From contig JAKPFN010000032.1 of the NCBI GenBank assembly GCA_029551395.1, forward strand, positions 1 to 36,351: 36,351 bases of DNA. Reading direction: 5' to 3'. The DNA comes from Armatimonadota bacterium. GTDB lineage: Bacteria; Armatimonadota; UBA5829; DTLH01. Below the pieces are notes generated by a model. That model made no database searches and was not told the origin of the DNA. It saw only the letters and a program-made list of their open reading frames with translations. Positions 8,912 through 36,351 of this stretch are shown piece by piece. A program made the position numbers and the translations under genes. Position 1 is the stretch's first letter. Every line of letters begins with the position of its first letter.

Positions 8912-9036
8912 TTACCGAGGATTTACGGCAAGCAGGCGGATTTCTGTCAGTTCTTCCATAGTATAATGCACACCTTCTCTGCCAAAACCCGTATCTTTGA
9001 CGCCGCCATAAGGCATGTGGTCAATCGGATATGCAA
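8912..9036 (-). pseudogene. 3' remnant of an aldehyde dehydrogenase gene
   Basis: Reading the minus strand from about 9036 to the TAA at 8914-8912 gives about 41 uninterrupted codons containing DHMPYGGVKDTGFGREG followed by EELTEIRLL. This is the C-terminal signature of NAD(P)-dependent aldehyde dehydrogenases (lactaldehyde or glyceraldehyde-3-phosphate type), which end in GGxKxSGxGREG and an EExTExK tail. Nothing upstream continues the frame. The homology stops where interspersed repeat copy A begins (about 9032). The catalytic Cys/Glu domain is absent, so this is a dead gene end rather than a functional gene. The frame has stayed open to the original stop, suggesting fairly recent loss. Confidence 0.85.
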
Positions 9037-9186
9037 TCCCGGTTATTGATGTTTAGATAATTGTTCGGAATCACAGATTCCTTAGCAATATGTTCGGGAG
9101 AAATTGCAAATTTCTCCCGAGGTTGGGATAGGTTGTAATATTAAGTCTCATAACTGGGCGTCGGTGCAAAAAGCGCGCACCGACGC
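9032..9186. repeat. Interspersed multi-hairpin repeat, copy A (5'-truncated)
   Basis: From 9032 to 9129 this matches copy B (25249-25346) without gaps and with only two mismatches in 98 positions. It contains GGAATC/GATTCC with a 3-nt loop, the 11-bp stem CGGGAGAAATT/AATTTCTCCCG (9095-9105, 9109-9119) and a terminal 10-bp stem GCGTCGGTGC/GCACCGACGC (9158-9167, 9177-9186). It lacks hairpin 1 and half of hairpin 2 found in copies B and C. The truncation point abuts the aldehyde dehydrogenase remnant. Confidence 0.85.
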
Positions 9187-17998: not shown

Positions 17999-18114
17999 CA
18001 GAATAATCCTTCCTGGTCTGTTTTTCGCGACCGCTTGACGAGGGTTGGTGAGGCGCATGGAGAGAAGAACCAGCTCAAAAAGCAAGCACAGTTCAAAAAT
18101 ATCTCTTCACTACG

Positions 18115-18240
18115 CGCCTGCGGGGTTAGCTTACGGGCTAGGACCGGAAGAGCAGCCCCTCTCCACACTATACGATGAAGATTCGCCCAAGAAACCAACC
18201 AGGTTCCCCCGCTTCCTCCCACTGGAGGAATTCGGCGATC
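18115..18240 (-). ncRNA. c-di-AMP riboswitch (ydaO/yuaA type)
   Basis: The minus strand carries, in order and with normal spacing, the conserved blocks of the ydaO-yuaA class: GATCGCCGAA (P1 5' side), GGGGGAACC, GGGCGAATC, AGGGGCT, then AGCCCGTAAGCTAACCCCG and closing GGCG (P1 3' side). This class binds cyclic di-AMP and commonly controls wall hydrolases and osmolyte or K+ transporters, usually switching them off when the ligand is high. Here it precedes a NlpC/P60 gene. No clear T-tract terminator follows. AGGCGC at the P1 3' side (18120-18115) can instead pair with GCGCCT at 18056-18051, suggesting an alternative fold near the upstream ATG. Confidence 0.93.
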
Positions 18241-18251
18241 AGTTGTTATCC

Positions 18252-25203: not shown

Positions 25204-25410
25204 CGGGCTAAATTTGCAATTTAGCCCGGAAGGGCTGAAAGAGGGATTTGCAATCCCGATTATTGATGTTTAGATGATTGTTCGGAATCACAGATTCCTT
25301 AGCAATATGTTCGGGAGAAATTGCAAATTTCTCCCGAGGTTGGGATTCCCGAGGTTGTAATATTAATTAAGACTCATAACTAGCGTCGGTGCACACTTTT
25401 TGCACCGACA
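25204..25410. repeat. Interspersed multi-hairpin repeat, copy B (most complete)
   Basis: Five successive hairpins. (1) An 11-bp stem CGGGCTAAATT/AATTTAGCCCG (25204-25214, 25218-25228). (2) GGGATT/AATCCC (25243-25248, 25252-25257). (3) GGAATC/GATTCC (25284-25289, 25293-25298). (4) An 11-bp stem CGGGAGAAATT/AATTTCTCCCG (25312-25322, 25326-25336). (5) GTCGGTGC/GCACCGAC (25385-25392, 25402-25409). Hairpins 1-4 have 3-nt loops. Hairpins 1, 2 and 4 share the core ATTTGCAAT, or its complement in 4, between different GC arms. Copies A and C match it closely. No open frame spans it. Confidence 0.85.
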
Positions 25411-36205: not shown

Positions 36206-36351
36206 CGGGCTAAATTTGCAATTTAGCCCGGAAGAATAGCCAAGGGATTTGCAATCCCGGTCTTTTGTGCTTCAAACCATAATCCGGAATCTCAGATTCC
36301 TCTGCAATATGTTCGGGAAGGATTGCAAATCCCTACCGAGAAGAATTAGTC
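36206..36351. repeat. Interspersed multi-hairpin repeat, copy C (runs off the window)
   Basis: Hairpin 1 matches copy B exactly (CGGGCTAAATT/AATTTAGCCCG; 36206-36216, 36220-36230), within a 31-nt identical stretch. Hairpin 2 is GGGATT/AATCCC (36244-36249, 36253-36258). Hairpin 3 is GGAATC/GATTCC (36286-36291, 36295-36300). Hairpin 4 is present but imperfect near 36312-36340. The spacers between hairpins differ from A and B while the stems are mostly kept. Confidence 0.8.

Follow-up and report, generated by a model that had tools for sequence, protein, structure and literature searches.

The interspersed hairpin repeat that is present in three copies in the DNA studied here is very probably a non-autonomous miniature element mobilised by a REP-associated tyrosine transposase (RAYT), of the REPIN or TIR-dimer type, consisting of both ends of a RAYT transposon without the gene. 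The case for this reading is built on its copy number and architecture, compensatory changes in its stems, a RAYT with matching ends in the same genome, hairpins whose type follows the RAYT lineage, intergenic placement and the flank AGNNTA at the H1 end. The stretch analysed (the window) is 36,351 nucleotides long and is the whole of contig C5 in the assembly of an Armatimonadota MAG (3.58 Mb, 165 contigs). Elements of this type are already known; the unusual part is the arrays of truncated element ends that lie at the borders.

The unit of copy B is 133 bp long and reads H1, 14 nt, H2, 26 nt, H3, 13 nt, H4. Each end of the element comprises an outer hairpin with an 11-bp stem and a 3-nt loop and an inner hairpin with a stem of about 6 bp, and the two ends are inverted. 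The features in the window are as follows.

25204..25336, + strand: complete gene-less element, copy B (H1-H2-H3-H4); the RAYT orientation is the - strand
25204..25228, + strand: H1, outer hairpin of the right end on the RAYT side, CGGGCTAAATT(TGC)AATTTAGCCCG; it also ends the RAYT locus
25243..25257, + strand: H2, inner hairpin, GGGATT(TGC)AATCCC; at the matching position in the RAYT locus
25284..25298, + strand: H3, inner hairpin, GGAATC(ACA)GATTCC; its core is unlike that of the other hairpins
25312..25336, + strand: H4, outer hairpin, CGGGAGAAATT(GCA)AATTTCTCCCG; several self-complementary arm types among the copies
25337..25351, + strand: truncated border unit of copy B; flank AGGTTGGGAT and the last 5 nt of H4 (TCCCG), then AGGTTG again
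36206..36338, + strand: complete element, copy C; H1 36206-36230, H2 36244-36258, H3 36286-36300, H4 36314-36338
9027..9119, + strand: truncated copy A; partial H2 from 9027, H3 9067-9081, H4 9095-9119, without H1

The initial annotation had described three copies in one orientation, and all are present where it placed them, with some revision of their limits. Copy B was given as 25204-25410; its start holds but its end does not, as the unit stops at 25336 and the remainder to 25410 takes in a truncated border unit and another hairpin repeat at ~25385-25410. Copy A, given as 9032-9186, in fact starts at 9027 and is truncated, with H1 and part of H2 missing, whilst copy C (36206-36351) is a complete copy whose start was right and whose element end moves to 36338. 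The 2 differences in 98 positions reported between copies A and B become 3 in the first 103 aligned positions. The observation that hairpins 1, 2 and 4 share a core between different arms is borne out, ATTTGCAAT being common to H1, H2 and H4, with ATCACAGAT in H3. The statement that there is no terminal repeat was, in effect, mistaken, since the element terminates in its outer hairpins, H1 and H4, which are inverted relative to each other. Folded as single-stranded DNA, copies B and C have z-scores of -6.8 and -6.2 respectively, and none of 200 shuffled sequences was equally stable.

A second, unrelated interspersed hairpin repeat, GCGTCGGTGC..GCACCGACGC, adjoins copies B and A at ~25385-25410 and 9160-9186, and a query covering it has ten matches in the genome. 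On the - strand at ~8913-9026 lies a short coding remnant that by eye resembles the C-terminal end of an aldehyde dehydrogenase; since it adjoins truncated copy A, one rearrangement may have broken both. Elsewhere in the window, Rfam identifies a c-di-AMP riboswitch at 18101-18247 on the - strand (RF00379, 75.4 bits).

The initial annotation had made its case depend on further copies in the genome and on compensatory stem changes, and both were found. A BLAST search with copy B returned more than 40 substantial copies, and H1 with up to two mismatches occurs at 111 sites (60 forward, 51 reverse, a balanced orientation), with 88 exact copies among the matches listed and none for a reversed control pattern; as the assembly is a fragmented MAG, these counts are a minimum. 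From the fetched loci 60 complete copies could be assembled, with a modal length of 133 bp (exactly 133 bp in 37). Over the 36 distinct 133-mers, mean column identity is 0.934 in the hairpins and 0.734 in the spacers. Four base pairs of H4 show changes on both sides (32 cells, compared with a mean of 9.8 and a maximum of 20 in shuffles), and H3 has one compensatory pair, A-T in 19 copies and G-C in 16 of the 36. H1 is almost invariant and is thus uninformative for or against pairing, and in H2 a shift in five copies reduces the counts. None of the 60 complete copies lies within an open frame of at least 130 codons, compared with 81% of control stretches. The element has stops in five of its six frames, so this placement shows where copies survive rather than where they were inserted.

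A search of the genome with the Pfam Y1_Tnp model found six genes. One of these, on contig C39, encodes an intact RAYT of 186 amino acids (NCBIfam NF047646, 86 bits; cut-off 80); it is the RAYT whose ends match the element, and it is single-copy. The initial annotation had proposed a search for rayT genes and had reported no transposase, which is correct for the window but not genome-wide. The HUH and Y-x3-NP motifs are intact, and H65, H67, N151 and P152 are invariant in an alignment of 11 relatives; its 64% homologue is from Armatimonadetes bacterium UBA5829, of the same order as the genome of the window. A profile made from the alignment of RAYT relatives matches E. coli TnpAREP (4er8) at 1.4e-10, a resemblance that, judged from sequence, is distant. 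The protein ends soon after an SSA motif, and Pfam finds Y1_Tnp, a weak match to DUF6146 and no HTH; a C-terminal HTH extension is typical of TnpAREP subclass 2.1, home of most TIRYTs (PMC6006769). AlphaFold, given no alignment, yielded a model of too low quality for use (mean pLDDT 39).

The gene on C39 has H4'-H3 at its left end (TGGGCTAGATTTGCAATCTAGCCCA, GGGATCTGTGATCCC), H4' being H4-like, and H2-H1 at its right end (GGGATTGCAAATCCC, CGGGCTAAATTGCAAATTTAGCCCG), in the order of the repeat read on the - strand. Thus the repeat corresponds to the RAYT unit minus its gene. The right end is identical in gene-less copies and RAYT locus, whereas the arm of the left outer hairpin differs from that of most copies. 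Few gene-less copies have the left outer hairpin of the RAYT itself (TGGGCTAG...), so a RAYT other than the present one may have spread most copies. The other five Y1 genes, on C29 and C109 (IS200/IS605-type) and on C84, C126 and C162 (RAYT-type), were rejected as sources, their ends being unlike H1-H4. The RAYT on C162 (L035/L080) has two-hairpin ends of its own, and to its left ~50-bp units are repeated in tandem; its outer hairpin, found at about a dozen sites in the genome, defines its own family with another core. The gene on C84 (L033) is flanked by GGAGTGCGG-type repeats, and that on C126 (L034) by a 20-bp inverted repeat, GTTCCCGCAGCCAAACGGTA.

Most RAYT homologues in related Armatimonadota and in Pseudomonas carry their own hairpins at both ends, with arms that vary from one locus to another. 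About a dozen loci have two hairpins per end, and the outer and inner ones usually share a core (GGATC..GATCC, ACGC..GCGT). The exceptions are L072, L083, L086 and L167, with one hairpin per end, and L034, with its inverted repeat instead. Gene-less elements of the matching type, with a layout of 130-140 bp, occur at 22 sites in relative G002, 39 in G014 and 6 in G017, and there are none in G000. H1 itself is absent from 100 related genomes. If a cognate transposase recognises core and loop, each RAYT lineage should have hairpins of its own type, as is seen here; such recognition explains why one AT core lies between variable GC arms, as the initial annotation had remarked. The C39 RAYT, a Y1 HUH single-strand endonuclease, would most likely recognise core and loop where the DNA is single-stranded (such as the template at a replication fork), cleave beside the outer hairpin and transfer copies in trans to intergenic sites; the arms would need only to pair, and hence would be free to vary.

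Outside H1, in the RAYT orientation, the sequence AGN(G/A/T)TA is found: AGNNTA is present at 67 of 93 right ends but only 4 of 59 left ends, whilst AG alone follows H4 at 55 of 59 left ends. At many ends a border unit, made of a 6-8 nt flank and a terminal, variably truncated part of the outer hairpin, is repeated in tandem. Strict detection finds arrays at 35/93 right ends and 18/54 left ends, against about 0.1 in shuffled flanks and 2.3 and 0.5 in distant flanks. A looser test applied to all families gives arrays at 48 of the 113 ends of this element (~42%) and at ~6% in other families (2/34 ends in Armatimonadota relatives, 2/34 in Pseudomonas). Of the last units of 33 right-end arrays, 21 have a common flank of 6 or 7 nt; across these last units the hairpin portion varies in length between 5 and 36 nt. 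The flank motifs of adjacent units agree in 44 of 65 pairs, compared with 14.9 expected, and they differ at some loci; border units therefore appear to arise locally, which disfavours their insertion as separate fragments from elsewhere. E. coli TnpAREP suggests a strict rule of nicking at C|T, but this is not supported for the arrays, as array-bearing ends show no enrichment for it (AG at +6/+7, p = 0.52). We found no description of truncated border arrays in a literature search that was thin on subscription journals.

Hairpins provoke replication slippage, and slippage at strong hairpins without a transposase is a serious candidate for the origin of the arrays, though we judge it to fall somewhat short of probable. 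A few junctions between border units share 1-4 bases, as slippage would favour, but many have no microhomology. Identical units can grow by ordinary slippage, which probably accounts for runs of them, yet the outer boundary of the units is narrow (6-8 nt) where the inner one is wide, and the comparable hairpins of the two other families have arrays at just 2/34 ends each.

We tentatively suggest another origin, which we consider possible but rather doubtful: that the RAYT, acting repeatedly at the ends of its own element, leaves the arrays as footprints. The RAYT would nick the DNA 6-8 nt beyond the outer hairpin; extension of the free 3′-OH would then reach a variable point within the hairpin before the strand was resealed to the 5′ end held by the RAYT through phosphotyrosine, duplicating the flank motif and a truncated hairpin. 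Two observations count against this scheme: its finer prediction of a C|T at the nick is not borne out at array-bearing ends, and the flank motifs of adjacent units differ at some loci, although they agree much more often than expected. HUH enzymes leave a 5′-phosphotyrosine and a free 3′-OH that is able to prime synthesis or to attack the tyrosine link, and both have been suggested as routes by which REPs spread (PMC8266576). If this is true, the RAYT would work in vivo as a replication-primed, rolling-circle-like enzyme, with the arrays as a record of aborted copying.

Returning to the element as a whole, we consider it very unlikely to be a canonical REP/REPIN family of GTAG type, such as those of E. 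coli or SBW25. A single RAYT with many gene-less inverted hairpin doublets would suit it, but there are two hairpins per end rather than one, and the 5′ GT[AG]G is absent from the hairpin foot at both ends, where the bases before the outer hairpin are CT (left end) or mostly TTC (right end). The GTAG-like AGNGTAG sits outside the 3′ foot. As the 5′ GT[AG]G foot is absent, the element is not a canonical REP, and with this proviso the suggestions in the initial annotation of a passively mobilised element or a REP/BIME-like array were essentially right. It is highly improbable that the border arrays are an assembly artefact, produced by short-read mis-joining of repeats in the MAG: several copies do lie at contig ends, but arrays also occur well within long contigs and have flank motifs specific to their locus. 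That selection for a function in RNA maintains the element, as a structured RNA (the remaining suggestion of the initial annotation) or as a transcription terminator, is scarcely tenable despite the strong hairpins, intergenic placement and compensatory changes, given that a search of the whole window gave no Rfam match at the element, the two orientations are about equally frequent (60 and 51), the sequence is in none of 100 relatives and the hairpin sequence at the element ends tracks the RAYT lineage.

Published work on how RAYTs spread REP-type repeats gives cleavage and strand transfer in vitro, but no dissemination route (PMC8266576). The ~100 copies and one matching RAYT described here bear on this question. 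The natural arm variants suggest that the identity of the bases is important in core and loop but not elsewhere, and the border arrays may record the RAYT reaction itself.

The closest described kind of element is the TIRtron of Di Nocera 2013 (PMC3733652). In TIRtrons, or TIRYTs, a RAYT-like gene lies between long inverted repeats in which self-complementary tracts are possible; they include cases with double-palindromic TIRs, and gene-less TIR dimers are dispersed in the genome (Di Nocera 2013, PMC3733652). Here too a RAYT-class gene with HUH and Y-x3-NP motifs is flanked at both ends by inverted, non-GTAG hairpin pairs, and the same repeats are dispersed as dimers (60 complete copies), although the left outer arm at the RAYT locus is unlike that of most copies. 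The tandem truncated borders are a difference, undescribed in that paper. We found no report of TIRtrons in Armatimonadota in the literature searched; atypical flanking structures are known from some RAYT subclasses (Quentin 2018). As in a MITE, the gene-less derivative shares both ends with an autonomous element, with the same reservation about the left outer arm in most copies. With IS200/IS605 elements and their gene-less derivatives it has in common a Y1 HUH transposase and subterminal hairpins, but the transposase here falls in the RAYT branch (NF047646; Y-x3-NP), and there is a single copy of the gene with these ends.

With canonical REPs and REPINs the element shares an inverted doublet dispersed as a unit and a RAYT in the genome. 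The REPINs of SBW25 combine a RAYT beside its own repeat type with numerous gene-less inverted doublets, conserved ends, a variable spacer and compensatory changes (Bertels and Rainey 2011, PMC3116915), all of which are also features of the element here. However, a REPIN has one GTAG-tagged REP per end in place of two hairpins without a GTAG foot, and in its tandem arrays whole REPs or REPINs are repeated. In Pseudomonas G101 (L199-L218, the genome of L154) we observed 102 outer hairpins, many in inverted pairs, and a four-hairpin element of 96-107 bp with GAT/ATC flanks. This may be the published R178 family of Pseudomonas, of 101 bp (Silby 2009, PMC2718517); a text search of the literature with its hairpin sequence gave nothing relevant. 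It resembles the Armatimonadota element in its inverted outer and inner hairpins with a common core, its size of ~100 bp and a RAYT homologue with the same ends, and differs in its core (ACGC..GCGT), its GAT/ATC flanks and the rarity of arrays (2/34 ends). Double-hairpin RAYT elements are thus extended to Armatimonadota, and the same plan is found in Pseudomonas.
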